Assembly: GCF_000009625.1 (NCBI RefSeq)
Contig: NC_002679.1
Location: 1-64,000 of the forward strand
Origin: Mesorhizobium japonicum MAFF 303099
Lineage (GTDB): Bacteria > Pseudomonadota > Alphaproteobacteria > Rhizobiales > Rhizobiaceae
Reading direction: 5' to 3'
DNA: 64,000 nt
Within the stretch, counting starts at the first letter, position 1; each line of letters starts with the position of its first letter. Below are positions 17,472 to 53,811 of the stretch, one piece after another. The position numbers were made by a program, and so were the translations under genes. The notes under the pieces were generated by a model that was not told the origin of the DNA, ran no database searches, and saw only the letters and a program-made list of their open reading frames with translations.

Positions 17472-17494
17472 GAGCACACCAGAGGATTTGTTCA

Positions 17495-29049: not shown

Positions 29050-29100
29050 TGTGACTCCAGGAGAAGACAAGGCCAGTCACACATATCGCGAACGCATTGC

Positions 29101-29115: not shown

Positions 29116-29158
29116 AGAGAGTTTTCTTGACGCTAGCGGACAATCGCGAAAATTGGGA

Positions 29159-29187: not shown

Positions 29188-29189
29188 CC

Positions 29190-29204
29190 TTGATCAACGA
29201 TCAA
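29190..29204. promoter_or_regulatory. Palindromic operator 2 at the hyuA leader
   Basis: This is the second exact copy of TTGATCAACGATCAA, ending 12 bp before the hyuA start codon and directly before its AGGGGA ribosome-binding site. Its placement suits direct blocking of the operon. Confidence 0.75.
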
Positions 29205-29216
29205 AGGGGAACGTCA

Positions 29217-34640: not shown

Positions 34641-34675
34641 CTCATCTTGGGGAATCCAAAACTAGGGAGAATAAA

Positions 34676-35938
34676 ATGAACTTGATGACAAACGTAATTG
34701 TCGCTGGCGTTTTCGCTTGCGGGCTCACGGGATACGCGACTGCACAAGAAACCATTAATGTCGGCGTCGTCCAGCCTCAGGCCGGTGAATGCGCTCAATG
34801 GGGCGTGCCGATCACCCGCGGAGTGCAGATCTGGGCCGAAGAATTCAACGCAAATGGCGGCATTGCTGACTCAACAGGTAAGAAACACCAGATCAAGGTA
34901 ACTGCGTACGACAATAACTGCTACACGGCCGGCGATGAACTGACTGCCTTCCGGCGCGCAATCCTGGACGATAAGGTCAACTTCATTCTGCAAACCTTTA
35001 CGCCGGCTTCTCGGCAAGCCGTTGCGCAGATCGCGACGGAAAACAAGGTTCTGACGACAAGTTACGGTGCTGGCTATCTCAATGCCAAGTATCCCTTCCT
35101 GATCGGGACGGTGACTGGTTCGCCGGCCTCGTATATGTTGTTGGTCAGCCACCTTCTTGAGACCCGGCCCGACATCAAGAAAGTCGCCATCGTGACGGCG
35201 GATCATTCGTTCGGCCAGGCTGCGCTAGCCTATTACAAGGCAGGTATCACTCCCTACGCGAAGCGCGTCGAGATCGTCTACTCCCAGCCATATGATCCAG
35301 CAGCGACATCCGACATGCTCGGGCTTGCAACGCCGATTTTTGCGTCCAGCCCAGACCTGATCGTCGAACTCGGGTTCACGCCGGGACAGCAGGCGCTGTT
35401 TATCGAAGCGATGGAGCAGCTTGGATACAAGGGGCTCTATGGTAGCGAGGGTTGGACAATGGGCTTGGTTACCGAGCGTGTTCCTGCCGCCCAGCTCGCG
35501 GGTCGCGTTTTCAGCGCATACGTGGTTGACGCCTCTGAGCCGAGCTTCAGCCCTCGCGTCTCGAATTTCTACAAGTCGTATGTCGAAAGGTACGGTCAGA
35601 AAGAATGGTCAGTGCTGGCCTCTGTGGCCTACGCGGCAATGACTACGGTGGAAGCGGGCATTCAGAAGGCATCTGCTCCCACTGGAGATGCAGTCAGACA
35701 GGCGCTGTTCGCGACCGATACGGTTGACCAGCCTCTGTTCGGCAAGTCTCGCTGGGGTGGTGCAGAAATGTATGGTGCCAACAATTGGCTGCTCACGCCG
35801 CTACCAGTCTACGTGACTGACGACAAAGGTGGCGTGAAAGTGGATGCGGTCGTCGACGTTGCCAAATGGTGGAACGCGAACAAGGACGCGGCGCTCCCGG
35901 TCCTCGCACAGGGCGGTCAGGTTCCGGCCAACAAGTAG
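34676..35938 (+). CDS. Branched-chain-amino-acid-type ABC substrate-binding protein
   Basis: This 420-residue periplasmic binding protein of the LivK/type I family has a signal peptide at residues 1-23 (FACGLTGYATAQ, cleavage after ATA) and a mature start ETINVGVVQPQAGECAQWG. ATG 34676 is preceded by TAGGGAGA. It opens the transporter half of the operon, 35 bp after the SDR gene, and is followed by an 11-bp perfect hairpin (35953-35980). Liv-type importers carry amino acids, amides, urea or aromatic acids, so the ligand is not given by family alone. Confidence 0.9.
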   Translation: MNLMTNVIVAGVFACGLTGYATAQETINVGVVQPQAGECAQWGVPITRGVQIWAEEFNANGGIADSTGKKHQIKVTAYDNNCYTAGDELTAFRRAILDDKVNFILQTFTPASRQAVAQIATENKVLTTSYGAGYLNAKYPFLIGTVTGSPASYMLLVSHLLETRPDIKKVAIVTADHSFGQAALAYYKAGITPYAKRVEIVYSQPYDPAATSDMLGLATPIFASSPDLIVELGFTPGQQALFIEAMEQLGYKGLYGSEGWTMGLVTERVPAAQLAGRVFSAYVVDASEPSFSPRVSNFYKSYVERYGQKEWSVLASVAYAAMTTVEAGIQKASAPTGDAVRQALFATDTVDQPLFGKSRWGGAEMYGANNWLLTPLPVYVTDDKGGVKVDAVVDVAKWWNANKDAALPVLAQGGQVPANK

Positions 35939-35952
35939 AAACCCCAGCAAGC

Positions 35953-35980
35953 GAAGTGGTCGCGCTGATGCGACCACTTC
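35953..35980 (+). terminator. Intercistronic hairpin after livK-type gene
   Basis: Perfect 11-bp arms (GAAGTGGTCGC, 35953-35963, and its complement, 35970-35980) with a 6-base loop, 14 bp after the stop and 25 bp before the permease start. No U-tract follows. It mirrors the hairpin at 14597 in the other ABC operon. Confidence 0.65.
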
Positions 35981-36005
35981 TACGCCGCAGAGGTGGTCGA
36001 CGCTC

Positions 36006-36869
36006 ATGCAAATCGTCCTGAATTGTCTCTCGCTCACGTCGTTCTACCTTTGCTTCGCCCTGGGCCTGGCATTGGTGTTCGGAGTGATGCGGATCATCAA
36101 CTTCGCTCACGGCGAGTTCTTCATGATCGGCGCCTACGCGACGTATTTGTGCGTCGCCACGCTTGCACCCCAAATCGGAGGACCAAGCGCCTGGCTCGTC
36201 GGCGCAATCGTGGCAGCAGGGATAACCGGGCTGCTAGGTGCCGTGCTTTACAGGACGGTGGTCGTTCCATTGGCTGACAAGCCGCTTGCGATTTTCATTG
36301 CGACGCTCGCGCTCTCGTACGTTCTGCAGACGATTGTCGTCCAGATATTCGGTCCGGTTGGCCTCTCCATCTCGCCCCCACTGCGCGGCGTCGTGAGCGT
36401 GGGAGGGGCAATCCTCCCAGCCTCGCGGGCAATGGTCATTGTAGCCGCGGCCGCCCTTTCAATAGGTTTATGGATCTACCTCATGAGAACTGAATCAGGT
36501 CGTCGCATCCGCGCGGTCGCTCAGAATCCTCGAGGCGCATTGCTGCAGGGCATTAAGACGCGGAATGTTGGCAATCTGACGCTGATTATCGGATCGGGGA
36601 TCGCAGGCATCTGCGGGGCAGCGATGGGACCGATAAGCCAGATATCGCCCTACATGGGTGGTCCTGCTCTCTGGAAAGCGTTCATCATCATAATTGTGGG
36701 CGGGATCGGCAATGTCTGGGGAGCGGTGGCGGCGGCGGCAATCTTTGGGGTGCTTGATACACTTATGTCGCAGTTCGGCGGCGGGCGCTTTCTTGCTCTG
36801 ACGAGTGCGGCCATCATGCTGTTCGTCCTTAGCGTAAAACCCTCCGGTCTATTCGGGGAAAAAGAATGA
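36006..36869 (+). CDS. Branched-chain-type ABC permease (LivH-like)
   Basis: This 287-residue inner-membrane permease has about eight helices. LVFGVMRIINFAHGEFFMIGAY near residue 25 is the LivH signature, and the conserved cytoplasmic loop is RIRAVAQNPRGALLQGI. ATG 36006 follows GAGGTGG; the longer open frame from 35844 overlaps the binding-protein gene and hairpin and is rejected. The stop overlaps the LivM start by ATGA. Confidence 0.92.
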   Translation: MQIVLNCLSLTSFYLCFALGLALVFGVMRIINFAHGEFFMIGAYATYLCVATLAPQIGGPSAWLVGAIVAAGITGLLGAVLYRTVVVPLADKPLAIFIATLALSYVLQTIVVQIFGPVGLSISPPLRGVVSVGGAILPASRAMVIVAAAALSIGLWIYLMRTESGRRIRAVAQNPRGALLQGIKTRNVGNLTLIIGSGIAGICGAAMGPISQISPYMGGPALWKAFIIIIVGGIGNVWGAVAAAAIFGVLDTLMSQFGGGRFLALTSAAIMLFVLSVKPSGLFGEKE

Positions 36870-37801
36870 TGGGCGCTCTGCATCGGGACATCGCAACCAT
36901 CATCGTTGTTGGGCTTGCACTTGTCGTCGGCGGGCTCGTCGGCACCCCATACATTCTGGCAGTCTTGGTCATCTTCGGCATGGTCTCAATTCTGGTCTTG
37001 TCCTATCGGACTATCACCACGATGGGTGGCTGGTCGTTCGCCCACGTCGCCCTCATGGGCATAGGGGGCTACTCAGTAGCTATCTTCTCCAAAGCGCCTT
37101 TTGAAATTCCAGTCCTCGCAGCGGTGGCGCTTGGCGGGGTGTTTGCTGCGTTCTTCGCCGCAATATTGTCTTGGCCTGTTCTTCGCACCCGCCAGTACTA
37201 CTTCTTCTTATCGACGTTCGCTGCGGGTGAAGCGCTGCGCCAGTGCTACATCCAAATCAAGGAAGTGACCGGCGGTACGGCGGGAATTGCTTTCATAGCC
37301 CGCCCTGGAGTCCTTCCTGATCCGTCATCAGCGTTTCAGTTTCTATGCCTTGTCGCGGTCATCCTCGTATTGCTGGGCCTGTTCTACGCAGCTCTGGACG
37401 CGTCCGACACCGGCAAAAAGATCAAGGCCGTCGGCGAGGACGAGGCCCTGTCGTCTTCGCTCGGTATAGACGCCTGGGCGCTTCGTGCACTCGCCTTCAT
37501 TCTCGGCTCGTTTGGGGCTGGCATCGCTGGTGGGCTTTTTGCGTCTTACAACGGCATCATGTCTCCCTCCGACATCAACGCCATGTTGATGTTCAAGATC
37601 GTGGCCGCGTGTGTGATTGGTGGCACCACCCGATTTTCAGGGCCGCTGCTCGGTTTGCTCTTTCTAACCCTGATTGAAGAGATATTCCGGTTTGTGCCTG
37701 AGTTCGTGCCGATGATCTGGGGCATGCTCGTCATCGCCGCCGTCATTTTCAGCCAGCGCACCGGCGGAGGCTTCAGGCTTCGTAAGGTGACAAATGCTTG
37801 A
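36866..37801 (+). CDS. Branched-chain-type ABC permease (LivM-like)
   Basis: This 311-residue permease partner of LivH has the family patterns GWSFAHVALMGIGGYSVAI (about residue 50-70) and AVGEDEALSSSLGIDAWALR in the ATPase-contact loop. It begins in the LivH stop and overlaps the LivG-like gene by eight bases. No cytoplasmic ATPase fusion is present. Confidence 0.92.
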   Translation: MMGALHRDIATIIVVGLALVVGGLVGTPYILAVLVIFGMVSILVLSYRTITTMGGWSFAHVALMGIGGYSVAIFSKAPFEIPVLAAVALGGVFAAFFAAILSWPVLRTRQYYFFLSTFAAGEALRQCYIQIKEVTGGTAGIAFIARPGVLPDPSSAFQFLCLVAVILVLLGLFYAALDASDTGKKIKAVGEDEALSSSLGIDAWALRALAFILGSFGAGIAGGLFASYNGIMSPSDINAMLMFKIVAACVIGGTTRFSGPLLGLLFLTLIEEIFRFVPEFVPMIWGMLVIAAVIFSQRTGGGFRLRKVTNA

Positions 37802-38552
37802 GGTAAGGGAAATCAGCCGTGCCTTCGGACGCCTCAAGGCAGTTGATGGGGTTACACTTTCGGTAACGAAGAACCAAATCCGCGGTCTTATCGGCCCCAA
37901 CGGATCGGGCAAGTCGACGACGATGAACCTAATCAGCGGCAGTCTTAAGCTTTCCGCTGGAAAAATCGAGCTCGAGGGGCAGCGAATCGAAGGCAAGGAG
38001 CAGCACCGAATCGCGCGGCTCGGCCTCATCCGAACCTTCCAACTGACCAGGGTATTCACGTCAGGTACTCTCCTAGACGCGGTCGCTCTCGGAGTCCGTG
38101 CCGCCAGTGGATCGCCGTGGAGTCCGGCCCGTTGGATCCCAGCGGGCGATCAGGCCGAAGTCAATCAAGCCGCGTTAGTTGCTTTGGAACGAATGGGGTT
38201 GGCACATCGCGCCAACGAACTCGCGGGCAATCTTCCTGGCGGTCTGCGACGGATCCTCAGCATCGCGACAGCGTTGGCAGCCAGGCCAAAGATCATGCTT
38301 TTGGACGAGCCGCTGGCTGGGCTGAACGCGACGGAAAAAGCGGAAGTTGCAAACAGAATCGAGAAGCTCAGGGCTGACGATGTTTCCATTCTGCTGGTCG
38401 AGCATGACATGAGGTCCGTCATGCGTTTGTGCGACCGAATTACAGTGCTGAACTTCGGCCAAGTCATTGCAGAAGGTACACCGGCCGAAATCGGAAGGCA
38501 CCCGGACGTGATCAAGGCCTACTTGGGTCAGAAGAGGGATCGCGATGCTTGA
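37794..38552 (+). CDS. ABC transporter ATPase (LivG-like)
   Basis: This 252-residue ATPase has Walker A GPNGSGKST (about 35-43), Walker B IMLLDEPLAGLN and H-loop LVEHDMR. The signature is degenerate: NLPGGLRRILSIA in place of LSGGQ-type (Leu-Pro-Gly-Gly). A change at that Ser is common in LivG proteins, so activity is still expected. It overlaps LivM and LivF by ATGCTTGA on each side. Confidence 0.92.
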   Translation: MLEVREISRAFGRLKAVDGVTLSVTKNQIRGLIGPNGSGKSTTMNLISGSLKLSAGKIELEGQRIEGKEQHRIARLGLIRTFQLTRVFTSGTLLDAVALGVRAASGSPWSPARWIPAGDQAEVNQAALVALERMGLAHRANELAGNLPGGLRRILSIATALAARPKIMLLDEPLAGLNATEKAEVANRIEKLRADDVSILLVEHDMRSVMRLCDRITVLNFGQVIAEGTPAEIGRHPDVIKAYLGQKRDRDA

Positions 38553-39249
38553 AGCGCAAAATATCGTGGTCGAGTATGGCGGCGTGCGCGCGCTGGATGA
38601 GCTGAGCTTCTCGGCTCAAATTGGGGACGTCACCGCTGTTGTGGGCAGCAATGGTGCTGGCAAGACCAGCCTAATGAACACCATCTGCGGCTTGATAAAA
38701 CCTGTATCAGGTGAGATCCGGCTGGATGGGGAGCGGATAGATAGTCTTGCTCCGGATGAAATCGTGCGCCGCGGCATTTCCTTGGTACCCGAGGGCCGAG
38801 AACTTTTTCCGCGTCTTTCGGTGCTCGAGAATCTGTTGCTTGGAGCGACAGTACGACCGGACCCCGCTACGAGGCGAACGACGCTGGGGCGGATATACGA
38901 ACTATTTCCAGTGCTAGCGAACCGACAGAACCAGAAGGCTGGCCAGTTGAGTGGCGGCGAGCAGCAAATGCTAGCGTTTGGCAGGGCGCTGATGTCGTTA
39001 CCGAAGTTGCTCCTGTTGGACGAGCCATCGATTGGCCTTGCGCCCATGGTCGAAGAGCAGCTCATCTTGGCGATAAGGGACTACTCGCTTGAACACGGGA
39101 TCGGCGTCTTAATTGTGGAGCAGAACGCGATGCTCGCGTTGGAATACGCGCAACACGCGTTCGTGGTCGAGCAGGGCAGGGTTGCACTCTCAGGACCAGC
39201 GGCAACCGTCAGAGACGATCCGGCAGTCATCGCAGCGTATCTCGGCTAG
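38545..39249 (+). CDS. ABC transporter ATPase (LivF-like)
   Basis: This 234-residue ATPase has Walker A GSNGAGKTS, signature LSGGEQQMLAFGRALM, Walker B LLLLDEPSIGLAP and the LivF-type ending VIAAYLG. It overlaps the LivG-like gene and ends 29 bp before the thioesterase gene. With 34676-38552 it completes a five-part importer. Confidence 0.92.
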   Translation: MLEAQNIVVEYGGVRALDELSFSAQIGDVTAVVGSNGAGKTSLMNTICGLIKPVSGEIRLDGERIDSLAPDEIVRRGISLVPEGRELFPRLSVLENLLLGATVRPDPATRRTTLGRIYELFPVLANRQNQKAGQLSGGEQQMLAFGRALMSLPKLLLLDEPSIGLAPMVEEQLILAIRDYSLEHGIGVLIVEQNAMLALEYAQHAFVVEQGRVALSGPAATVRDDPAVIAAYLG

Positions 39250-39278
39250 CACCATTGCTGGCGGTCGTCCAAAACCGC

Positions 39279-39755
39279 ATGGAGTTCCGATTGAACACTC
39301 ACCACGCAAATCTGCTTCGGCAACCCAACCTGACCGCCGGTGTAGTGCATCCATGGCATTTGGACCAGTTCGGTCACATGAATGTTCGCGGCTATGCGCC
39401 CTTCTTCGATGACGCTTCCTTCTTGTTTTGGCATCAGTTGCAGCTGAGCCAGCAGAAGATGATCGATGAGTTCGGCGTTCATTCCGTGACACTCCGAGCT
39501 TCCACGGAATTCAAAGCCGAGCTGAAAAAGGGCGACTGCTTCTCAATCGTTGGCTGCGTTCAAAAGGTTGGCAATAAGAGCGTCATGCTCCAATTCTCTA
39601 TGGTGGATCAGAAGAGTGAAACACTTTTCGCTGTCTATGAGACCATCGAGGTATTCGTCGAGGCGGAAGGCGGATCGTCGGTCACAATTCCGCAGCCAAT
39701 ACGTGACCGGTTATTGAAGTTCCACAAGGAGGCCGGCGTCGCTGGCACAATTTGA
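39279..39755 (+). CDS. Hotdog-fold acyl-CoA thioesterase (4HBT-like)
   Basis: This 158-residue hotdog protein has HPWHLDQFGHMNVRGYAPFF, the catalytic Asp/His-containing loop-helix of the 4-hydroxybenzoyl-CoA thioesterase family. The beta strand RASTEFKAELKKGD and SMVDQKSETLFAVYETIEVF follow. Start ATG 39279 is preferred to an upstream TTG at 39255, though neither has a strong ribosome-binding site. In carnitine catabolism a hotdog betainyl-CoA thioesterase follows the BKACE step; here it is the last gene of the same operon as BKACE, so it likely frees the acyl-CoA made by that enzyme. Confidence 0.85.
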   Translation: MEFRLNTHHANLLRQPNLTAGVVHPWHLDQFGHMNVRGYAPFFDDASFLFWHQLQLSQQKMIDEFGVHSVTLRASTEFKAELKKGDCFSIVGCVQKVGNKSVMLQFSMVDQKSETLFAVYETIEVFVEAEGGSSVTIPQPIRDRLLKFHKEAGVAGTI

Positions 39756-42721: not shown

Positions 42722-43477
42722 ATGGCTGCTATTTCCGACCCCGAACTAGCGACTCTTTCTGCTCGTTCACGTGGATTTTTCACGCACGCTGAGTTATTTG
42801 CTCCCGGCTTCCCCGATGCGATCTTGGTGCGCGGCAGGTTTGATCACGAAAGCTATACAGATGACCTATTTAACCTGCTAGCGTTACACTGCCCCGCCAG
42901 TCTGTCTGCAGCGGTGTCCATGCGCCGTGCTGAGTTCTTAGCCGGGCGAGCGATGGCATACGCGGCATTGCGGGCGCTGGGTCAAGCCGCTGCTGAGATT
43001 CCAATCGGCCCAGGCGGGGCTCCACTCTGGCCCCCGTCTTCCGCTGGTTCAATAACCCATACGCGTGGGCATTGCGCTTGTTTCGCCATCGCCGGTGGGA
43101 ATTGGCGGGTAGGTGTCGACGTTGAGGCGCTGGCCAGCGGTGATGCTCTGGATGCGATTCTAAACATGACCACCAATGAGGATGAACGTGCCTTGATCGC
43201 TAGACAAGTGGTCCTCGCTCCAGACTGGCTGGCGAGCCTGGTTTTTTCGGCCAAAGAAACACTCTTCAAAGCGCTCTATCCTGTGGCAAGGCGCTTTTTC
43301 GGATTCGACTGTGCAGAGTTACGAACGACGCCCAGAAACGGGCAACTCCGACTGCATCTAACACAAACTATCTGTCCCGAATTGATCGAGGGTCAGCACT
43401 ATGACATTCGTTTTAGCATCGCTGCTGGCCATGTGTTGACCTGGTTGGCAGTAACACACCAGCATGTGTCAATGTAG
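42722..43477 (+). CDS. 4'-phosphopantetheinyl transferase (EntD/Sfp type)
   Basis: This 251-residue protein has the two catalytic motifs of the family: WRVGVDVEAL (GxDxE, about 136-145) and FSAKETLFKALYP (KExxxKA, about 178-190). An N-terminal part with RRAEFLAGRAMAYAALR is also typical of the EntD branch. It transfers phosphopantetheine from CoA to the Ser of carrier domains. The only carrier domains in the window are in the adenylation-PCP protein (46443-48380) and the PKS (48469-53811), its obvious clients. An IS110 insertion now separates it from them. Confidence 0.9.
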   Translation: MAAISDPELATLSARSRGFFTHAELFAPGFPDAILVRGRFDHESYTDDLFNLLALHCPASLSAAVSMRRAEFLAGRAMAYAALRALGQAAAEIPIGPGGAPLWPPSSAGSITHTRGHCACFAIAGGNWRVGVDVEALASGDALDAILNMTTNEDERALIARQVVLAPDWLASLVFSAKETLFKALYPVARRFFGFDCAELRTTPRNGQLRLHLTQTICPELIEGQHYDIRFSIAAGHVLTWLAVTHQHVSM

Positions 43478-43630
43478 CGGACTCCGGCTGATACATTGTT
43501 AAGACTCCAGAAGCTTCGGAACCAGGGCCCTAGGCGGCTGCCGTCCGCCGCCGCGCCCGTCGATCAGGATAGCGCGTCTCCAGCAATACCACGCGGTGGT
43601 ATGAGATACCTTGTGTCCAGCCTTTTTTTT

Positions 43631-44833
43631 TCACGCCGTGATTTTGATGGCCGCGCGACGCTGTTGAGGGTCGTAGAGCGCCTTGTTGCGCCACGCCCTC
43701 CAGAGGACTTGAAGCCATGCTCGGGCGAGAATTCGAACAGCGTGCGGGTGCTTGCAGCCACGGTCACGGGCTTTGCGATAGACGGCCGCGGCCCAAGCGG
43801 AGGCGTGACGGGAGTTGTCGGCAAAGCAGGTGAACGCCAATCTCAGGTTCTTGTTGCAGGCCCATCGGAACACAACGCCTCGGCTTTTGCCGGAGGCGTG
43901 GGTCACGGGACAGACGCCGGCCTCGGCGGCAAGTTGGTCCTGCATCAGGAAGCGCTCGCGCACGTCGCCGAGCTCAGCGAGGATCTGGGCGGCGCAAATG
44001 CGGCCTGCGCGCGGGAACGACATGACGATCTTGCCGTCGGGCAATTGGGCGACGGCGTGCTCGATGTGCGAGGACAGCTTGGCGATCTCGCAGACGAGGC
44101 GTTCGGGAATGGCGACCAATGCGCCGGCCAGCTCGCCTTTGGCGCCGGCCTCGGCGTCACCGGCCAGCCCTGTCGGCGCGGCTCGCAGTCGGGCCAGCAG
44201 GTCGGCCGGCGAACGGCGCCCACGGTCGGCGTGTTGCGCCATGAAGCTAGCCAGACGTTTCTCGCCCAGGCGGCTGGCGCTGTCGGGAGTGGGATAGCGA
44301 CCGACGAAGGCGAGCGCGATCGGGCTGTCGATGGCGGCGAAAATGGCGACTGCCCCTGGCCAGAAGCCTTCGAGCAGATTGCGGAGCTGGTTTGCCAATG
44401 CGACACGCTGGGCCACCAGGTCGTCGCGGCCGCGGACCAGGGCGCGCAACGCCAGGAAGTCATCGGAGACCGGCACAAGAGGCCGGAAGCGATGTCCGTC
44501 GGTGCGCAAGATGTCGGCCAACATGAAGGCATTGCCCGGATCGCTTTTGCCACCGGCGGCGTGGTACCGCGGCCTGCAGGCCTTGACGACGTTCGGATGG
44601 ACCGGGATCACGGGATACCCGGCCTCTACCAAGGTATCGACGACCAGACCGGGTCGCTCGATGGCAATACGCAGTTCGGCTGGCGCCGCCACGCGCTTGG
44701 GCCGGCCTACCATGTCAGCCAGCCCAGCCGAATCGTGGCGGACATCGAGACGCACGAGGACCGGGTCGACGCCGTCAATAACGCACATGGCATGGCTTAC
44801 GCCGCCCCAGTCCAAACCTGCGTGAAATGGCAT
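43631..44833 (-). CDS. IS110-family transposase
   Basis: This 400-residue transposase has the DEDD start HAGLDWGGVSHAMCVIDG and the C-terminal Transposase_20 region AEAGVCPVTHASGKSRGVVF. Its helix-rich middle is normal in length. The plus-strand frame 43496-45049 across it is a GC-driven shadow. About 200 bp of non-coding DNA upstream (44834-45050) is where the IS110 subgroup carries its guide RNA. The element sits between the phosphopantetheinyl transferase gene and the GntR gene of the biosynthetic locus. Exact element ends were not found. Confidence 0.9.
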   Translation of the reverse strand: MPFHAGLDWGGVSHAMCVIDGVDPVLVRLDVRHDSAGLADMVGRPKRVAAPAELRIAIERPGLVVDTLVEAGYPVIPVHPNVVKACRPRYHAAGGKSDPGNAFMLADILRTDGHRFRPLVPVSDDFLALRALVRGRDDLVAQRVALANQLRNLLEGFWPGAVAIFAAIDSPIALAFVGRYPTPDSASRLGEKRLASFMAQHADRGRRSPADLLARLRAAPTGLAGDAEAGAKGELAGALVAIPERLVCEIAKLSSHIEHAVAQLPDGKIVMSFPRAGRICAAQILAELGDVRERFLMQDQLAAEAGVCPVTHASGKSRGVVFRWACNKNLRLAFTCFADNSRHASAWAAAVYRKARDRGCKHPHAVRILARAWLQVLWRAWRNKALYDPQQRRAAIKITA

Positions 44834-45237
44834 ATGACCTTCTCGGATTGCTTAAAACTCACCCGAGCTGGGAGATCGTACGGATCGCTCACTGACAGGC
44901 GCTCTGCTGGCCAGCACTGGCGCTTCACCCTGTGGTCCCTCGCGGTCTCCCGGCACCTGCCGCGCGGCGGTCTCACACGGGCCGTCAACCGGCAAGCGCG
45001 CTTGGCCGTCACTGCAGATGCTCGGGCTGGCGGATGCTACGCCTCTTGATCGCTTCGCACCCGCCAGCCCTGCTGTGCCACGCGTTTGCGATGCGGCCGC
45101 ACTTCGTGCGTGGACCAGCGGACCAGGGTTCGGGTGGGCTGGTGCCCCGCCGTTTTGATGCAGCGTGAAACGTGTTCACAGAGGCTTTCGAAGCACCCAT
45201 TCCTGATGTCATCCCCAGTATTTGGAGATCATGCCAA
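44834..45237. other. Non-coding stretch between IS110 and the GntR gene
   Basis: The part nearest the transposase (44834-45050) probably belongs to the IS110 left end. The rest holds the promoter of the GntR gene. No gene is supported. Confidence 0.4.
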
Positions 45238-45963
45238 ATGGCGACAAAAACCTTGAAGTACCAGATACCACCATTGAACGCTTCCCCGAGTTCGGCGATT
45301 GAGCATGTCTATGCCGAACTGAAGAACGCTTTGATGTCCGGGGAATTTTCGCCCGGGCAGCCGATGCGTCTCGGAGAACTGGCTGTCGCATTCGGCACAA
45401 GCCACATGCCGATCCGCGAGTCGCTCAACCGGCTCAGCGGCATCGACATCCTCGAACGGGCGCCGCGTCAGTCCGCGCGCGTTCCAATAATCACTGCTAA
45501 AGGCCTACGCGATCTTCTGGAAGTGCGCCTTCTGAATGAAAGGCAGGCCATCATCTGGGGGGCAAAGAAATCTACCGGGAAGAGCCTGAACTATATCAGA
45601 GAAATCAATGTCAAGATGGATCAACTCAATCTGGGGAAGAACGCTGAAGTGAAGAAGTATCTGAAACTGAACCAACTGTTCCATTTTGCCGTTTACAACC
45701 TCTCTCAGAACAAAGTCTTGATGAACACGATCGAGACGCATTGGCTTCATGCGGGCCCGATCCTCAGCCTGAGGCGAAAGGAACCAAATTTTGCTCCGGG
45801 CCACCATAATCATCGCGAAATCATCGACCAGTTGGAGAAGGGCAACGGCTTGGCAGCCGCCGACGCCCTCGAGCGCAACATCATAGAAGCGCATGAGCAG
45901 ATTTTTGCGATTCTTGACAAGTCCGACCTGAAGGATCGTGCGGGAAATAGGGTCGGTGCCTAG
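45238..45963 (+). CDS. GntR-family regulator (FCD domain), paralogue of 28360-29049
   Basis: This 241-residue regulator has the winged helix AELKNALMSGEFSPGQPMRL and FGTSHMPIRESLNRL, nearly identical at the recognition helix to the regulator of the hyu operon. An FCD domain follows (LNQLFHFAVYNLSQNKVL, HHNHREIIDQL). ATG 45238 has GGAG 11 bases upstream; an ATG at 45231 is out of frame. It is 479 bp upstream of the adenylation-protein gene on the same strand and is the only regulator in the biosynthetic locus. No copy of the TTGATC-type palindrome was seen near it, so its operator is unknown. Confidence 0.88.
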   Translation: MATKTLKYQIPPLNASPSSAIEHVYAELKNALMSGEFSPGQPMRLGELAVAFGTSHMPIRESLNRLSGIDILERAPRQSARVPIITAKGLRDLLEVRLLNERQAIIWGAKKSTGKSLNYIREINVKMDQLNLGKNAEVKKYLKLNQLFHFAVYNLSQNKVLMNTIETHWLHAGPILSLRRKEPNFAPGHHNHREIIDQLEKGNGLAAADALERNIIEAHEQIFAILDKSDLKDRAGNRVGA

Positions 45964-46442
45964 CTTAGGTAGGAACGCGGAAGCGTGCCTCGGGATGGTA
46001 ACAGCTAGTATCCCTTGCTCGTCGAAGGCCATGCACGCAATTGCGGCTGTCGAATGCGGCCGGCATGGGGGAACCGATATTTCGGCGAAATCCAGCCGCC
46101 GCACGTCAGGCTGATCGCAACGTCATCGCCGCACCACCCCCTCTGGAAATGCGGTCGTTTGAAGCCTGCATCTGCATACCCATGGGACGGGCGGCCACCT
46201 GATAGACAAGTCTTCACCGAGTGGTTGTGGCGTAGCCACAAATACGGATGCGTCTTTCTTATGCCTTCGAGACCGGCAGCGAGCTGCCCCGAGGAAGGAC
46301 TACTGCATCCGGCGAAACTCGCACGCCTCGACCAAGATGTTAAACAAATGTGAAGTTTTGTTGAAAGGATTGACTGTGTAACTTGTCACGCATACACCGA
46401 AGCAAAGCCGTTTGGCAGTGTCCTCGCATTCTGAGTGAAAAG
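45964..46442. other. Upstream region of the adenylation/PKS genes
   Basis: No gene is supported here. The last 100 bp are A/T-richer and include TTGAAA and TTGACT candidates (46360 and 46370) for a promoter of the two synthase genes. Confidence 0.4.
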
Positions 46443-48380
46443 ATGCAGAGTTTAACAAGGGCCGCAGGTCCGTCAGATCGGACCATTGCAGCTTCCGTGC
46501 TTTGGTATGCATCCGAATTTCCTCGTCGTCCTGCTGTCATTTTCGGAACAGAGGCGATCAACTACATGGATTTGTGGCTGCGAGCCTGTGAGATAGCTCG
46601 TGCCCTAAAAACTGGACGTGAAGCGGGTTTGGACCGCGTGGCCCTTTATTTTCCCATCGGTATTGACCGGATCGCGGCGATCCTCTGCTGTCAAATCCTA
46701 GGTGTTTCCTACGTTCCTGTGGAACCAAATCTTCCAGCGAGTCGCATTCGCGAGATGCTTGCGCAAGCGGATCCGAGCGTGCTCCTCAGTTCATCGGCCA
46801 TCTGTTCGGCGATCCTCAAGGAGGTCTCGTCGTGCCCGACAGTGATGGTCGAGGAAGTTGGAGTGGGCGCCGCTGATCGTGGATCGTTGAGCCGAGATTT
46901 GGCGCTGCCGCCGAAGTCCGGTGGCTACGTTATCTTTACCTCGGGTTCGACTGGCAAGCCGAAGGCAGTCAACATGGGAGGAGCAGCACTTCAAAACCTC
47001 GTGGACTGGCAGATCGAACTTTCGACGCTGTCAGACAATGCGGCAACGGCTCAGTTCGCCCCCATTTCGTTCGATGTATCGTTTCAGGAGATATTCTCCA
47101 CGCTCTGTTCTGGTGGGAGTATCGTCCTCCTAGCGAATGAACAGCGGATCGACCCCGATTTGCTTTCGGACGAGATACTGCGTGCCCGGGTGGAGCGATT
47201 GTTTCTGCCATTTATCGCTCTCCAACAATTGGCGTCGAATTGTGTGGAGCGCAATTTGTTTCCCGACAGTCTACGGGAGATCCACACCGCCGGCGAACAA
47301 CTCGTGGTCTCTTCCGCTTTGCGCGAGTTTTTCATCAAGCTCCCCCAGTGTCGGCTCTTCAATCAATATGGTCCCTCCGAGACACACGTCGTCACCTGTC
47401 ACGAGCTTGATAGCAATCCAGCGGAATGGCCTAGGTTACCGCCTATCGGTCGGCCTCTACCGAATGTCGTACTGTTCATTTTAGGTGAAGATGGCCGACC
47501 GGTGAGGTTAGGAGAGGTGGGAGAGTTGTATATTGGTGGCGTCTGCCTCGCGCAGGGGTATTTCCAGGACAAGGAGCGAACAGACGAACGGTTCATGACT
47601 ATAGATATTAACGGCACGCTAACGAGATTGTATCGGACCGGCGACTTTGCGACATCAGATGAAAGTGGTTGTTTTTTCTTCTGTGGTCGCCGAGACCACC
47701 AAATCAAGATCGATGGCTACAGGGTTGAACTTGGGGAAATTGAGAGCGTTATAGCGGATCACCCAGACGTAGCCGAAGTCGCCGTGGTTTTCGATCGTGA
47801 TGCAAATGGAACGGGACGACTGATCGCCTGCCTGACGAGCAAAGATGGGGCGCCAACCGACTGTCTCGAGACAGTAGTTCGCGCCCATGTCCGTGAGAAG
47901 CTCCCTGGCTACATGGCGCCAGACCGTGTCCAGATCATCGGCGCGATGCCTAAAACTGCGAGTGGCAAGGTCGATCGGAAATCAATCGCGGAAAGGCTGT
48001 GTGCCGAAAAGGTCAACCCCTCGGCACCGCCTGTCGAGAAGCCAGCCTGTGCCACTACGAGCGGATCGGTGAAGAACAGCGATCTGTGCGGCGCGATCAC
48101 CTCTTACTGGCGGGAGCTCCTGGACCACCCCTTGCTCTCGGACTCGGATAATGTGTTCGATTTTGGCGCGCGTTCGATCATGGTCCCGGAGCTTCAACGC
48201 CGCCTTCGCCGTCAATTCGGGATTAGCATGCCCGCGATCTTGGTCTTCCGGCATCCTTCGCCGAGGGAGCTTGCAGACTTTTTATCGCGAAGATCGGTGA
48301 AGGGCGATGCATTGAACACTACGTTGGCTGGTCTCGCAAACCGGCGTGTGTCGACCAAAAGACGCGCTTCTCCGCGCTGA
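46443..48380 (+). CDS. NRPS adenylation-carrier protein (A-PCP), proline-like pocket
   Basis: This 645-residue, stand-alone A-PCP has core A3 YVIFTSGSTGKPKAV (about 162-176), A4 FDVSFQEIF (about 209), A5 NQYGPSETHVV (about 307), GELYIGG, YRTGDF, and A10 PKTASGKVDRK (about 503). The specificity residues read by the GrsA scheme are D V Q F H A Q V V K, close to published proline codes (DVQ...A.VVK) with changes at two positions. The carrier domain follows with the phosphopantetheine Ser in DFGARSIMVP (about 577). There is no condensation domain, so the aminoacyl group must pass to the KS of the next protein. ATG 46443 is preferred to a TTG at 46383. Confidence 0.9.
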   Translation: MQSLTRAAGPSDRTIAASVLWYASEFPRRPAVIFGTEAINYMDLWLRACEIARALKTGREAGLDRVALYFPIGIDRIAAILCCQILGVSYVPVEPNLPASRIREMLAQADPSVLLSSSAICSAILKEVSSCPTVMVEEVGVGAADRGSLSRDLALPPKSGGYVIFTSGSTGKPKAVNMGGAALQNLVDWQIELSTLSDNAATAQFAPISFDVSFQEIFSTLCSGGSIVLLANEQRIDPDLLSDEILRARVERLFLPFIALQQLASNCVERNLFPDSLREIHTAGEQLVVSSALREFFIKLPQCRLFNQYGPSETHVVTCHELDSNPAEWPRLPPIGRPLPNVVLFILGEDGRPVRLGEVGELYIGGVCLAQGYFQDKERTDERFMTIDINGTLTRLYRTGDFATSDESGCFFFCGRRDHQIKIDGYRVELGEIESVIADHPDVAEVAVVFDRDANGTGRLIACLTSKDGAPTDCLETVVRAHVREKLPGYMAPDRVQIIGAMPKTASGKVDRKSIAERLCAEKVNPSAPPVEKPACATTSGSVKNSDLCGAITSYWRELLDHPLLSDSDNVFDFGARSIMVPELQRRLRRQFGISMPAILVFRHPSPRELADFLSRRSVKGDALNTTLAGLANRRVSTKRRASPR

Positions 48381-48468
48381 TCCTGGGCAGCGATGACCCC
48401 TCCAGCAGATCAGATTAGCGCGCTCCGGAAGCCAAAAAGCAGATAAACGGACCAGCGACGAGGCAAAA

Positions 48469-51400
48469 ATGAACGGCCCCATTCACAGAGCTACCCCCAT
48501 CGCGATTATTGGAATGGCCTGCCGGTTCCCCAATGCTGATACGCCCAAGGCATTCTGGGAAAACATTGTTGCCGGGCGCGAGAGCGTTCGTGAGTTGTCG
48601 GATGTTGAACTCGCCGGCGCGGGCGTCGAGCCCGAGGAGTGGGAAGCGGACGATTATATCCGCCGCGGCGCCCCTCTTACGGGCCTCGGCTACTTCGACG
48701 CTGACTTCTTCAGCATCACGCCTCGTGAGGCGGCTCTCCTCGATCCGCAGCACCGACTATTCCTGGAAAACATTTGGCACGCCATCGAAGATGCTGGCTA
48801 CGCCGTCCGTTCGACCGAGATGACGACGGGCATCTATGCTGGCTCCGGCCCGAGCAGCTATTTCGCCAGATGCGTAGCCGGCTTGCATGATTTCCGCAAG
48901 GAAGGCATGCTCGACTCCATGTCCGGCTTCCAGGCCATGCTGGGAAACGACAAGGATTACCTGGCGACTCGGGCGGCCCATCGCCTCAACCTCATCGGTC
49001 CCGCCATCAACGTCCAAACAGCTTGTTCAACCTCACTCGTAAGTCTCCATCTAGCCTGCAGCGGTCTTCAGAACGGCGAATGCGACCTGGCGCTGGCGGG
49101 CGGTGTCACGGCAATCGTTCCCGACGGTGCTGGCTATCGCTATCAAGAGGGCATGATCTTGTCCCGCGACGGGCACTGCCGTCCGTTCGATGCCGATGCC
49201 AGCGGCACGGTGTTTTCGAGTGGCGTCGGTGTGCTTGCGCTTCGAAGACTCGATGACGCGCTTGCCGATGGTGATACCATTCACGCTGTTATTCGCGGTT
49301 CGGCGATCAACAATGATGGAAACGACAAGATCAGCTTCTCGGCGCCGAGCATCGAGGGCCAATCGAGCGTCGTCGCAAGAGCACTGATGAACAGTTCAAT
49401 CGCGCCGGAAACGATTTCCTACATGGAGACTCACGGAACGGGCACGAAACTGGGTGATCCGATCGAGATCGAAGCCCTCCGCGAAGTCTTCGCCGGCTTT
49501 CCGGCGGACGTCGCACCGATCACCCTTGGTTCGGTGAAGGCCAATATCGGCCATACGATCGCCGCTTCCGGCGTCGCGGGTGTTATCAAGACCGTCATGG
49601 CACTGAAGTCGCGAACCTTGCCGCCAGCGGTCAATTTCAAGACGCCCAATCCGGAAATCGACTTCGATCGCCTTCCCTTCGCCGTGCCGGCGAGCGCTGT
49701 GCCCTGGAAGTCCGAGGGTCCGCGACGCGCGGGCATCAGTTCGTTCGGCGTGGGCGGAACGAATGCCCATGTCATTTTGGAGGAAGCACCGGGCCAGACG
49801 AACGGTTCATCTCAGCCGGACGATACGCCGCACCCCCCCGACGTACCTCGTACGCTGAACATTTCGGCACGCACGCCACAGGCCCTGGCCACCGTGGCCA
49901 AGAGTTTTGCCTTGCGACTCGATATGGCACAGCCCGACGAGCGCGACACCATCTGCTTCACCGCGAACACCGCCCGCCGCGCTTTTGAGTATCGGCGTTT
50001 CGCGACCGGTCGGACAACTAGGGAGTTGGCCGAGAGTCTTCGCGCAAGCGATCATGCCCGCGTCGATGTCTCCAAACACGTGGTTCCCGCCGCCCTGTTC
50101 ACCGGACAGGGCGGCCAGGGCGAAGCTATGGGGCGCGGGCTCTACGAGAGCGATCCGATCTTCCGCAAAGTCTTCGACGCCTGTGACGCGGTGGTCGCAC
50201 CGCTTCGCAAACACGGATTGGGCGACATCCTTTACGGCGACGGGACGCTCGCCCATTTCGTTCACGACACCGAATATACCCAGCCCGCCCTGTTCGCGAT
50301 CGAACTCGCACTCGCCCGAGTTCTCGAGGCTAGGGGCTTCGTCCCAGAGATCGTCATGGGACACAGCATTGGAGAATACGTGGCGGCCCATCTTGCCGGC
50401 GTGTTCTCACTCGAGGACGGGCTAAAGCTGATCACCAAGCGCGGCGAACTGATGGGTCGGCTTCCTCGCAATGGCGGCATGGTCGTCCTGACGGCTGATC
50501 CGGACACAGCCACTCAGATGATCCGGGACAGCGAAGTCGAGCTCGCCATCGCGGCCGAGAACGGACCAACCAGTACGGTGGTCGCGGGCGAGACTGACGC
50601 ACTTGAAACGCTGATCAAGGTCGCCAAGGAAAAAGGCGTCCGCACGGCGCAGTTGAAGGTCTCGCACGCCTTTCATTCGCATCTCATGGATCCAATCCTC
50701 GAACAGTTTGAGGCGTTCGCGAGCACCCTCGATTTTTCCAAGCCCGACGGCCGACTGATAAGCGCGAAGACTGGCAAGGTCGCCGGCGAGGAAGTCGCCG
50801 ATGCGCGCTATTGGACCGACCACGTTCGCCAGCCCGTCCTGTTCCATCAGGGCATGATGACTGCGCAGGAAATTGGGGCGAATCTCTTCCTCGAAATCGG
50901 ACCGCACCCGGTCCTCACGCCGATGGCGCAGGCGGCCCTAGATGGCATTGCCTCGCAGTCGCAATTCGTCTCGAGCCTCAATCGCACCCGCAACGACGAA
51001 GAGGTTCTCGCCGAGACGGCGGGCCGCCTTTTCCTCGCCGGCCTTACGATCAATACGCTCATCGATCTGCCGGATAATGAACGCCGGCTCGTCGATCTTC
51101 CGCTCTATCCCTTCGAACGTCAGCATCACTGGATCGAAACGAGAGCGAGCGACCGGCTGGCATGGCACTGCCGCCGCGAATGGCACGCGGAAAAGCAGTC
51201 AGCGCCGCAACCGCCGAAAGACAAGGCCCTCTGGATTATCCTGGGCAATGCCCTTGGTCTCGCCGGACGCTTAGCTCAGGCGATCGAGAAGCGGGAAGGG
51301 CCGGAACAGACAGCGGTCGTTCTTTCGAATGTCGACACAGGTCTCACAGGCGGTGTGCTCGACGCGCATGTCGCGGGGATCATCGTCACCCCTGAGAGCG

Positions 51401-53811
51401 CGGAAGGCGCGTCAAGTGGACAGATCGGCGAGGCGGCGCACAGCCACGCCGCCACCCTCATGCAGTTCGTCCAGACGGTTCAGGCAGCCACTAAGAATGG
51501 CAATCTGGCGAAGGCGAAGATTTGGGTCGTCGGCCAGTCCGGCCGTGCCGTGCCGCAAACAGACACACCAATTCCGTACGCCGCTCGTCCAGCCTCACTG
51601 GTCAGCGCCTCACTGCATGGCATGGCGATGGTGCTCGCGAGCGAACATCCCGATCTGTGGGGGGGCGACATCGATCTCGGCGCGGAGCCGAGCGACGCAG
51701 AAATCGCGGTCGCGATCGGCATTCTCGTCGGTGGCTCTGGGTCGGAGACCGCCTACGCCGTGCGCGGCGAGGAACGCTACGTCCTGCGCCTCAGCGAAAG
51801 CGGCGATGTCGGTACGGATTGCCCGGTCGATCCGCAGAAGATCTATCTCGTCACCGGCGGGCTTGGCGCTCTCGGATCGCTAATGGTCGAATGGCTGATC
51901 AATCGCGGTGCGCGCCGCCTCGTGCTTCTCAACAGGGACGTCGCGGACGGGGCCAAACAGGAACGGCTTGAAGCCCTGCGCCGTTTAGGCGCTGAGATCG
52001 CGGCGCATGCGGTTGACATCGCCGACCAAGTCGGAGTCGAGCGAATCCTGGGCGATCTCTCGGAGGCGGGCCATCAACTCGGCGGGATCATCCACACCGC
52101 CGGCGTCGTTCAGGACGCCACGCTCGGGTCGATCAAGGAGGCGAGCGAACTCGAACATGCACTCCGGGCTAAGCTCCAGGGTACACTCATTCTCGACAAG
52201 GCGAGCCGTCGCTTCTCACCCGACTTCTTCGTCTGCTTCTCCTCGGTTAGCGCGCTTCTCGGTATGAAGGGCCAGGCGGCTTACGTGGCGGCCAATGCCG
52301 CCATGAACCGCATCGTCGAGGGCCGCAACGCCGAGGGGCTGCCAGGTGTCAGCATCGAATGGGGCCCGTGGGCGGAAACCGGTATGGCATCCGGACTCGA
52401 CGAGCGTCTGCGCAAGCGCCTAACCGATTTCGGCCTGCTCGCGATCCGCAACCGGGAGGCGCTCGAGCGGCTGGAGAGCCTGTGCGCCTCAACTGGGACG
52501 CTCACCGCAGCGCCGATCCTGTGGCGACGTTTCTGCAAGAAGCAGTACGGGCAGACGCCGGCTTGGCTCACGCCTCTGTCGAATGTGCAGAAGAATCCCC
52601 AGGCGGCCAATGACGACGAGGCGACAGATCCACTTGCGCGGCTCTTCGGCCCGGTCGCACCGAGCGATCGCAGTCAGGCGATCGAAAGCTTCCTACGCGG
52701 AGAGGTCGCCCGTGTGCTCGGCATCGCCGATCCGGACTGCCTGCCGATGGACGAAGCGCTCAACCAGATGGGATTCGACTCCTTGGCTACAATTGAGTTC
52801 CGCAACGAACTTGCCAAGACCGGCATCAAGGTCTCGCTCCAGAAGCTCGTGATGGGTGCCTCAATCGCGGAGATCGCGGCCGATACTGAGACGCAGGTGA
52901 CCGCCGCTGTCGGGGGCGATGCGGATGGCGAGGCGGTACCAACCGCGCCGTTCTTGGCCGACAGTGCCCAGGGCTACGACAAGAGCGCGGTGATCATTCC
53001 GCGTCCGAAGCCCGACGCGCCGATCCGCCTGATCGGCTTTCCCTATGCCGGCGGCGGCCCGCTCGTATTCCAGCGCTGGATCGACAGGATGCCGGATCAC
53101 ATAGAGTTCGGCATCCTGCAGATGCCAGGCCGCAGCGCGCGCCTGGAAGAGGGCTTCTGGATGCGGATGGAGGACATGGTCGACGGCATCGTGCCGGAGA
53201 TGCTGCCCTTCCTTAAGGAAAAACCCTTCGCCTTCCTCGGGTTTTGCTATGGCGGCGTCCAGGCCTTCGAGATTGCCCAGCGGGTGCGCCGCGATCACGG
53301 GCTGGAGCCGGAACACTTCTTCGTGGCCGGTGGTCGCTCGCCACAGATTTACAATAACGACCAGTTCGCCATCGACGTCCAGCAGTTCAATCACGAGACC
53401 GGCAAATCCGAACACGAACTCGACGAGAGCGCGTTCGTCGAGATGCTGAAGGAGGTAAATTTCGCCAACAACAAGGCGCTGTTCGAAGATCCCGAATTGC
53501 GCGCGATGATGCTTCCGATTATCCGAGCGGACTACGAGATAAACAACGCCTATCGCTACGGTTTCCATCCTCCGCTCGACGCCCCAATCACAGCGATAGG
53601 AGGCCGCATCGACCCCTATGTTACGGGCGACCACATTATCGGCTGGAAAGAGCATACCACGAAGCAGTTCAAGGCGCATTTTTGCGCCGGCGGTCACTTT
53701 TTCATGGAACCCCAGATCGAACTCCTTACGCGCATCGCGATCGAAGACCTCGAGCCAGTCGTCCAGCGTCTGGCCGCAGATGGCGAGCGCCAGCTGGCTG
53801 TGATGAGCTGA
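48469..53811 (+). CDS. Type I polyketide synthase, one module KS-AT-KR-ACP-TE
   Basis: This 1780-residue protein has, in order: KS (about 8-435) with Cys186 in QTACSTS, His322 and His362; AT (about 540-860) with Ser633 in GHSIGEY and the HAFH motif for malonyl-CoA; a reductase-type region (about 900-1300) with TGGLGALG and catalytic Ser and Tyr in FSSVSALLG and AAYVAANAAMN; ACP with Ser1438 in MGFDSLAT; and a thioesterase (about 1515-1780). The thioesterase motif is GFCYG, so the nucleophile is Cys1593 in place of Ser; Asp in RIDPYV and His in GGHFFME complete the triad. No DH or ER. It is 88 bp after the A-PCP gene and likely adds one malonate to the aminoacyl starter, reduces it to a hydroxyl and releases it. 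Confidence 0.93.
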   Translation: MNGPIHRATPIAIIGMACRFPNADTPKAFWENIVAGRESVRELSDVELAGAGVEPEEWEADDYIRRGAPLTGLGYFDADFFSITPREAALLDPQHRLFLENIWHAIEDAGYAVRSTEMTTGIYAGSGPSSYFARCVAGLHDFRKEGMLDSMSGFQAMLGNDKDYLATRAAHRLNLIGPAINVQTACSTSLVSLHLACSGLQNGECDLALAGGVTAIVPDGAGYRYQEGMILSRDGHCRPFDADASGTVFSSGVGVLALRRLDDALADGDTIHAVIRGSAINNDGNDKISFSAPSIEGQSSVVARALMNSSIAPETISYMETHGTGTKLGDPIEIEALREVFAGFPADVAPITLGSVKANIGHTIAASGVAGVIKTVMALKSRTLPPAVNFKTPNPEIDFDRLPFAVPASAVPWKSEGPRRAGISSFGVGGTNAHVILEEAPGQTNGSSQPDDTPHPPDVPRTLNISARTPQALATVAKSFALRLDMAQPDERDTICFTANTARRAFEYRRFATGRTTRELAESLRASDHARVDVSKHVVPAALFTGQGGQGEAMGRGLYESDPIFRKVFDACDAVVAPLRKHGLGDILYGDGTLAHFVHDTEYTQPALFAIELALARVLEARGFVPEIVMGHSIGEYVAAHLAGVFSLEDGLKLITKRGELMGRLPRNGGMVVLTADPDTATQMIRDSEVELAIAAENGPTSTVVAGETDALETLIKVAKEKGVRTAQLKVSHAFHSHLMDPILEQFEAFASTLDFSKPDGRLISAKTGKVAGEEVADARYWTDHVRQPVLFHQGMMTAQEIGANLFLEIGPHPVLTPMAQAALDGIASQSQFVSSLNRTRNDEEVLAETAGRLFLAGLTINTLIDLPDNERRLVDLPLYPFERQHHWIETRASDRLAWHCRREWHAEKQSAPQPPKDKALWIILGNALGLAGRLAQAIEKREGPEQTAVVLSNVDTGLTGGVLDAHVAGIIVTPESAEGASSGQIGEAAHSHAATLMQFVQTVQAATKNGNLAKAKIWVVGQSGRAVPQTDTPIPYAARPASLVSASLHGMAMVLASEHPDLWGGDIDLGAEPSDAEIAVAIGILVGGSGSETAYAVRGEERYVLRLSESGDVGTDCPVDPQKIYLVTGGLGALGSLMVEWLINRGARRLVLLNRDVADGAKQERLEALRRLGAEIAAHAVDIADQVGVERILGDLSEAGHQLGGIIHTAGVVQDATLGSIKEASELEHALRAKLQGTLILDKASRRFSPDFFVCFSSVSALLGMKGQAAYVAANAAMNRIVEGRNAEGLPGVSIEWGPWAETGMASGLDERLRKRLTDFGLLAIRNREALERLESLCASTGTLTAAPILWRRFCKKQYGQTPAWLTPLSNVQKNPQAANDDEATDPLARLFGPVAPSDRSQAIESFLRGEVARVLGIADPDCLPMDEALNQMGFDSLATIEFRNELAKTGIKVSLQKLVMGASIAEIAADTETQVTAAVGGDADGEAVPTAPFLADSAQGYDKSAVIIPRPKPDAPIRLIGFPYAGGGPLVFQRWIDRMPDHIEFGILQMPGRSARLEEGFWMRMEDMVDGIVPEMLPFLKEKPFAFLGFCYGGVQAFEIAQRVRRDHGLEPEHFFVAGGRSPQIYNNDQFAIDVQQFNHETGKSEHELDESAFVEMLKEVNFANNKALFEDPELRAMMLPIIRADYEINNAYRYGFHPPLDAPITAIGGRIDPYVTGDHIIGWKEHTTKQFKAHFCAGGHFFMEPQIELLTRIAIEDLEPVVQRLAADGERQLAVMS

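Follow-up and report, generated by a model that had tools for sequence, protein, structure and literature searches.

The first 64,000 bases of contig NC_002679.1 of Mesorhizobium japonicum MAFF 303099 (the window, which opens contig C2 of a genome of 7,596,297 bases in 3 contigs) contain a small amino acid-polyketide assembly line (block B) and, about 3 kb upstream of it, a catabolic-looking set of genes (block C, 28.3-39.8 kb). We propose tentatively, at a little under an even chance, that block B makes a product of proline and malonate, that block C imports and degrades this product and that both are inherited together on accessory plasmids. The product is likely 3-hydroxy-3-(pyrrolidin-2-yl)propanoate or its lactam, 1-hydroxypyrrolizidin-3-one. 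An earlier reading, which was made from the sequence alone, had described a 4'-phosphopantetheinyl transferase (PPTase), a stand-alone A-PCP protein, a one-module KS-AT-KR-ACP-TE synthase and a GntR regulator lying together without a condensation domain, and had missed block C. All four genes were found where it had placed them, with their defining Pfam domains above cut-off, and Pfam finds no condensation domain in the gene products of 42722-53811. Block B thus has what a hybrid of nonribosomal peptide synthetase (NRPS) and polyketide synthase (PKS) needs: an A domain with a carrier, a KS/AT/ACP module with intact catalytic motifs and, at hand, an Sfp-type PPTase, which is one of three ACPS-family matches in the genome.

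The gene order of block C (Table 1) reads like the undoing of the predicted product, that is, lactam opening, oxidation of a beta-hydroxy acid, cleavage of a beta-keto acid and the freeing of an amino acid from CoA. The ABC importer would take up the product, the hydantoinase pair HydA/HydB would open the lactam in an ATP-dependent step and the SDR dehydrogenase would oxidise the opened product to the beta-keto acid. The beta-keto acid cleavage enzyme (BKACE) would then cleave this acid with acetyl-CoA to prolyl-CoA and acetoacetate, and the 4HBT thioesterase would convert prolyl-CoA to proline. The nearest NCBIfam models of HydA and HydB are the alpha (464 bits) and beta (296 bits) subunits of caprolactamase, each below a cut-off of 1000. 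BKACE is recognised by PF05853 and reaches no NCBIfam equivalog cut-off, the general FabG-type subfamily model (238 bits vs 222) is the sole NCBIfam model that the SDR protein passes among those listed, and the 4HBT protein matches the thioesterase end of carnitine 3-dehydrogenase weakly (20.9 bits, far below cut-off).

The distribution of both blocks was analysed in 146 Mesorhizobium genomes with thresholds of E <= 1e-40 for the synthase TE, E <= 1e-180 for HydA and E <= 1e-110 for BKACE, scoring in each genome the best first-look candidates (at most 8 for HydA, 16 for BKACE and 11 for the control). The synthase TE was found in seven genomes (G000, G009, G017, G024, G051, G089 and, as a 99-residue fragment only, G119), and the synthases of G017 and G051 are frame-broken. 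HydA was present in eight genomes, namely the six synthase carriers at 82-100% and G059 and G067 at 53-54%, and BKACE in seven, comprising the same six (89-100%) and G045, whose copy (77%) contains a stop codon. The single control, an M24 peptidase gene of the same window, also occurred in eight of the 146 genomes, three with the synthase and five without it. Because this equally rare gene does not track the synthase, the match between HydA and the synthase is not explained by a shared plasmid region alone. The match is one arrangement in C(146,6), or 8e-11, a figure that cannot be taken as a p-value because of the kinship among the genomes, with G000 and G024 almost the same at this region. 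In a sample of 397 genomes from the order, BKACE was detected in the own genome and in G462 (76%), while for an equal-sized sample the own genome and G177 (36%) were the only TE matches listed. The BKACE orthologs at 76-77% (G462:C178 63536-64423; L148) lie in genomes with no synthase match, and such carriers are possible consumers without producers, or remnants.

In the linkage analysis through REARRANGEMENT, window positions 28264-40460 and 41675-53815 behaved as two sharp-edged blocks. They share a contig in five of the six carriers, in variable order and at distances that range between about 1-2 kb and more than 120 kb. They are neighbours in G009; G089 has the catabolic block in inverted orientation, with its regulator less than 2 kb from the PPTase gene; G017 has them about 185 kb from each other along a 331-kb contig, a distance that shrinks to about 122 kb by the other route if this contig is circular, as the L002 record of this strain is; and the draft G051 has them on different contigs. 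Sinorhizobium 8-89 has HydB and HydA placed between its A gene and regulator 1, as well as a second operon that combines BKACE, SDR and ABC genes with other hydantoinases. In Rhizobium sp. BT03, a BKACE-SDR-ABC-Hyd operon of this second type is carried by the plasmid that bears the A-PKS pair. The link between the blocks is strong in the rhizobia that were read, and it is not universal.

We consider it somewhat unlikely that block B makes a proline-derived beta-hydroxy-gamma-amino compound while block C is an unrelated passenger of the same plasmid that degrades a plant lactam or hydantoin. A passenger would fit the related plasmids and the many transposase genes of the window (IS110 twice, IS240, ISL3 and Tn3), as well as the Breoghania record and the Agrobacterium vitis and Rhizobium etli records of a glycine-type sister cluster, which have no close block C. 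However, HydA at 80% or more is present in all six synthase carriers and in none of the 140 other genomes, and the equally rare window gene does not follow this pattern. Moreover, the linkage survives rearrangement, with HydAB inside the cluster in 8-89, and each block C family fits a reverse step. A number of observations nevertheless count against joining the two blocks. The steps of block C are assigned by family, with HydA/B, BKACE and the 4HBT protein below NCBIfam cut-offs and only a general FabG-type assignment for the SDR protein. The six carriers share ancestry, so that six out of six are not six independent events, and weak or many-paralog cases could have been missed as scoring covered only the best few candidates of each genome. 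G462 and G045 have BKACE orthologs but no synthase, HydA/B of BT03 are of a different type (25-32%) and the BKACE operon of 8-89 is on another contig than the pair. No block C gene was found in the 20.7 kb around the Breoghania pair, and the best Breoghania BKACE reaches 47%. Finally, the palindrome described below for regulator 2 was not found, at up to two mismatches, in the promoter regions of block B.

Table 1. Features of blocks B and C and of the glycine-type sister cluster (window positions unless a record is named)
Feature	Position	Strand	Basis and remarks
GntR/FCD regulator 2	28360..29070	-	Pfam; divergent from the catabolic operon; 41% identical to regulator 1 (tblastn)
Two identical palindromes TTGATCAACGATCAA	29101..29204 (at 29101 and 29190)	.	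Putative operators of regulator 2
Hydantoinase/oxoprolinase subunit A (HydA)	29190..31226	+	PF05378, PF01968, PF19278
Hydantoinase/oxoprolinase subunit B (HydB)	31223..32980	+	PF02538
BKACE beta-keto acid cleavage enzyme	32977..33867	+	PF05853, 308 bits vs cut-off 24.8; PDB 3c6c 265 bits
SDR dehydrogenase, FabG/3-hydroxybutyrate dehydrogenase-like	33864..34640	+	Domain and NCBIfam models
Branched-chain-amino-acid-type ABC importer (binding protein, two permeases, two ATPases)	34613..39249	+	PF13458 for the binding protein; permease and ATPase names from the annotation of the near-identical record L001
4HBT thioesterase	39255..39755	+	PF13279
4'-Phosphopantetheinyl transferase (PPTase, Sfp/EntD type)	42722..43477	+	PF17837, PF01648
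IS110-family insertion	43595..45070	-	Transposase open reading frame 43631-44833; PF01548/PF02371; not part of the ancestral cluster
GntR/FCD transcriptional regulator 1	45172..45963	+	PF00392, PF07729
Stand-alone A-PCP, predicted L-proline adenylation and loading	46443..48380	+	PF00501, PF13193, PF00550; reading frame opens at TTG 46383
One-module PKS, KS-AT-KR-ACP-TE	48469..53811	+	Pfam domains; AT motif HAFH; TE Cys nucleophile in GFCYGG
Glycine-type sister cluster	L021 3599-14904; L013 8287-19457; L012 8289-19460; L020		

The two palindromes TTGATCAACGATCAA, which are 89 bases apart and lie before or at the HydA start, are likely the operators of regulator 2. The start listed for HydA, TTG 29190, lies within the second palindrome, so that translation probably begins further downstream. 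Two palindromes 89-90 bases apart also occur in G009, G089, G051 and G017 (four of the five copies were aligned), one is found at the HydA start of Sinorhizobium 8-89, and the BKACE genes of the 8-89 and BT03 operons have TTGATCAAAGATCAA in front of them. If up to two mismatches are allowed, a 17-base form occurs twice in the window vs 0.19 expected, a number reached in one of 100 shuffles, and the exact 16-base form has three occurrences in the genome, two of them at HydA. Two forms of 15 bases with two mismatches also lie inside the PPTase and A genes. An operator shared by blocks B and C was rejected, as the palindrome search found none.

Near-identical DNA is present on plasmids of Mesorhizobium sp. 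131-2-5 (L001, 99.9%) and M. huakuii 583 (L002/G017, 99.2%), and two thirds of the stretch have an 89% counterpart on the BT03 plasmid (L003). The sequence-only reading knew of no described rhizobial product with exactly this architecture. The A-PCP and synthase pair is present in four genera, Mesorhizobium, Sinorhizobium, Rhizobium and Breoghania, and no description of the cluster or its product was recognised among the open-access full-text matches listed, a body of literature that leaves out most subscription journals. Regulator 1 orthologs (80-88%) adjoin the pair in BT03, L017, G009 and 8-89. The PPTase gene lies upstream of GntR-A-PKS in L001, L002/G017, G024, G009 and L017/G089, and is absent beside the pair in BT03 and 8-89 (L018, L145); it was therefore rejected as an obligate part of the cluster, since it adjoins the pair only in the Mesorhizobium arrangement. 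The active-site motifs of KS, AT, KR, ACP and TE are kept, bar small changes, in eight aligned synthases. Because the dN/dS values against orthologs are low, at 0.23-0.30 for the PPTase (two comparisons), 0.24-0.36 for A-PCP (four usable of five; Breoghania gave no ratio as synonymous sites were saturated) and 0.21-0.26 for the synthase (five comparisons), these three genes are under purifying selection. Decay of the synthase was observed in M. huakuii 583 (L002 18468-23806, split near residue 1065), in Mesorhizobium LSJC280B00 (L016 2-2819, break near residue 1377-1410) and in G119 (C1 6285393-6285689), where only the 99-residue remnant is left.

The start of the A-PCP gene is uncertain. TTG 46383 opens the reading frame, ATG 46443 is backed by the tblastn match with BT03, which begins at residue 21, and by the 8-89 reading frame, which opens at the equivalent ATG, and a RefSeq start equivalent to 46566 would truncate the A domain. 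The IS110 transposase inside the span had been overlooked in the sequence-only reading. Its element is a later insertion at about 43595-45070, as judged from the orthologous loci of G009 and L017, which run across the site without it; the conserved flanks stop at 43594 and restart at 45071.

L-proline is the probable substrate of the A domain. Its ten pocket positions, which were read by eye from an alignment to GrsB and TycB chains, give DVQFHAQVVK, where the position numbering and the final K follow the known motif. Since the best solved relatives of this pocket are the GrsB and TycB chains 8p5o (102 bits in the pocket region) and 9bfd_B (91 bits; next chain 58), which we take to be proline-activating modules, proline is the likely starter. 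The pocket is of the proline type, DVQ..A.VVK, nearest to proline domains, with a deviating H at position 299. The table of proline codes in PMC9113097 contains DVQYIAHVVK, DVQYVAHVVK, DVQFVSQVMK and DVQFVAQVVK, from the last of which the window code differs at one of ten positions, and V236 plus Q239 are given for the codes of 59 of 71 proline domains in PMC12283262. H at position 299 is in none of the proline codes listed in the former source (PMC9113097), which speaks against proline. H299 and Q322 are constant in six aligned window-type A domains, including that of Breoghania at 44% identity. A relative of proline such as hydroxyproline, pipecolate or an azetidine acid would be suggested by these two shared residues, which differ from GrsB, and by the codes DVQCLSEVTK and DMQLVSQQVK that are given for azetidine-2-carboxylate (PMC12283262). 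Such a starter is unlikely, however, as Q322 is also found in the proline codes DVQFVAQVVK and DVQFVSQVMK (PMC9113097) and GrsB and TycB clearly outscore the other chains in the pocket region.

With proline as the starter, the PPTase would arm both carrier domains and the A domain would activate L-proline and load its own PCP. The KS would condense prolyl-S-PCP with malonyl-ACP, the AT having loaded the malonyl group, and the KR would yield the beta-hydroxy acyl thioester. The scheme of one amino acid, one malonate, one ketoreduction and release, which had been predicted from domain order, is supported by the intact domains and by the same pair in four genera. The AT motif in six aligned window-type synthases is HAFH, which we take as a sign of malonyl-CoA specificity, and the KR retains both the nucleotide motif and the Ser-Tyr region. 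The TE, whose predicted structure is confident (mean pLDDT 90), has Cys instead of Ser as the nucleophile in GFCYGG, with Asp and His in place. Its nearest matches are 3qmw/3qmv, presumably RedJ, and RifR. Cys is the nucleophile in 78 and Ser in six of the 84 loci read, which is no measure of rarity as the search pattern favoured Cys and kept the best 80 of 155 relatives.

Release of the 3-hydroxy-3-(pyrrolidin-2-yl)propanoyl thioester might give a lactam, an acid or a beta-lactone. The lactam is favoured because the hydantoinase genes are co-inherited and their nearest named models, although below cut-off, are caprolactamase subunits; most likely the pyrrolidine nitrogen would attack to form the gamma-lactam, and the alternative would be the free acid. 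The beta-hydroxy-gamma-amino acid or cyclised form of the sequence-only reading thus stands in a sharper version, as a probable proline derivative with the lactam favoured. The TE might also close a beta-lactone, as ObiF does for obafluorin, yielding a reactive 4-(pyrrolidin-2-yl)oxetan-2-one that acts as an enzyme inhibitor, with block C as its detoxification. The GxCxG nucleophile and an Asp aligned to the RifR Asp-Pro site agree with this, since a Cys nucleophile with a RifR-like Asp, closing a small ring, is described for ObiF (PMC6668435) and SulM (PMC11298585). We regard the beta-lactone as quite improbable, because the free gamma-NH should, on chemical grounds, open the lactone to the gamma-lactam, direct comparison with ObiF1 gives a weak match (E 0.0008) and Cys is common in the fetched TEs, though the search favoured it; it was kept as a rival and not adopted as the main product.

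A larger line whose other modules lie elsewhere, which the sequence-only reading had named as a way to refute it, would leave the pair as fragments and is very improbable, for despite 23 A-domain-like matches in the genome and an NRPS gene about 7 kb behind the synthase in M. huakuii 583, the pair ending in a TE is kept in four genera and its annotated neighbours in 131-2-5 and BT03 include no further module. A fused A-PCP-PKS in other phyla was also rejected, as Pfam detects no A domain in either of the two candidates read (L023, L028).

The combination of the two blocks has likenesses to several known systems. In rhizopine (mos/moc) and opine systems, synthesis and catabolism genes are co-inherited on accessory plasmids of plant-associated bacteria; rhizopines, which are made in nodules and used by free-living kin, are inositol derivatives and are not made by assembly lines. 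The two blocks of the window are linked and co-occur, and if block C acts on the product they would resemble these systems in their paired synthesis and catabolism genes, with possible consumers without producers. Carnitine breakdown uses a beta-hydroxy acid dehydrogenase, BKACE and a 4HBT thioesterase, and block C has the same families with scores below the equivalog cut-offs; likewise, its HydAB resemble the caprolactamase of caprolactam catabolism without reaching the CapAB equivalog cut-off. We know of no precedent for HydAB and carnitine-type enzymes combined with a co-inherited synthase. Detoxin/rimosamide-like NRPS-PKS hybrids such as PipC and pseudotetraivprolide also appear, from PMC12828459, to extend proline by one C2 unit that is ketoreduced to a beta-hydroxy acid, but they have trans-AT modules that use FabD and stand with peptide modules, whereas the window pair is alone and has a built-in AT and no C domain. 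It is therefore not a member of that family, which is defined by a trans-AT module and NRPS modules with C domains. The window TE shares the GxCxG nucleophile and RifR-like Asp with ObiF and SulM; those enzymes end NRPS lines and close four-membered rings, whereas the window TE ends a PKS module.

A further comparison is a glycine-type sister cluster in A. vitis, R. etli 8C-3 and R. sullae, whose KS-AT-KR-ACP-TE synthase has a Cys-TE, 38-39% full-length identity and a PPTase nearby. It differs in having its own A-methyltransferase-PCP protein with a glycine-like pocket (DILQLGLIWK, by eye), the AT motif VASH/FASH and its own OpuAC (betaine-type) binding protein and EamA transporter. Its architecture predicts an N-methylated beta-hydroxy-gamma-amino acid; because of the VASH/FASH motif its extender may not be malonate, and the motif also argues against plain carnitine as its product. 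No close BKACE was found in the A. vitis genome or the R. etli plasmid. Carnitine or gamma-amino-beta-hydroxybutyrate as the window product, an idea derived from the OpuAC protein and methyltransferase of this sister cluster, was dropped, as the window has a proline-like pocket and showed no trace of OpuAC or EamA genes. When the Breoghania OpuAC protein was searched against the genome, a single match (22%) resulted.

Several neighbouring features were observed as well. The marine Breoghania (L019 3353-12858) has the window-type pair (A 44%, PKS 54% identity) with OpuAC-family and EamA transporter genes directly downstream in one apparent operon, and the nucleotide motif of its KR reads TGASGALA rather than TGGLGALG. 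The corresponding place in the window, directly behind the synthase, is occupied by an IS240-type transposase (54289-54846, -) and may have lost its OpuAC and EamA genes. Two orthologous loci carry a radical SAM gene of the KamA type downstream of the pair, namely L016 (2896-5234), where an amino acid permease accompanies it, and L003 (24838-26118); the two KamA proteins are 27% identical. Behind the cluster of M. huakuii 583 (L002 29086-35815) are a MATE efflux gene at about 5 kb and the large NRPS gene mentioned above. The window also contains a further catabolic-looking set at 10505-22040 (MmgE/PrpD, an M24 creatinase-like peptidase, an ABC transporter, an amidase, a Dak1 domain and a DAO oxidoreductase) and, at 55097-56941 (-), an N6/N4 DNA methyltransferase with an Mrr-like restriction endonuclease domain.

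The proposed pairing of synthesis and catabolism makes block B and block C a candidate assembly-line counterpart of the rhizopine and opine systems, in which the product may serve as a private nutrient or signal. A bolder version, which we hold to be rather unlikely, is that an assembly-line pyrrolizidinone underlies a closed nutritional or signalling economy on plasmids of nodule bacteria, in which one block would make it from proline and malonate and the other would import it and return proline and acetoacetate, so that carriers would feed or recognise only their own kind; such a system would be rhizopine-like with NRPS-PKS chemistry at its base. The mini assembly line is tractable, with two catalytic proteins and one predicted product, and the candidate degradation enzymes predict this product independently of the assembly line. 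If the proposal is true, the biosynthesis of one natural product would reveal its catabolism and vice versa, bacterial pyrrolizidine chemistry would become accessible and legume symbionts would offer a testable assembly-line counterpart of opines and rhizopines.

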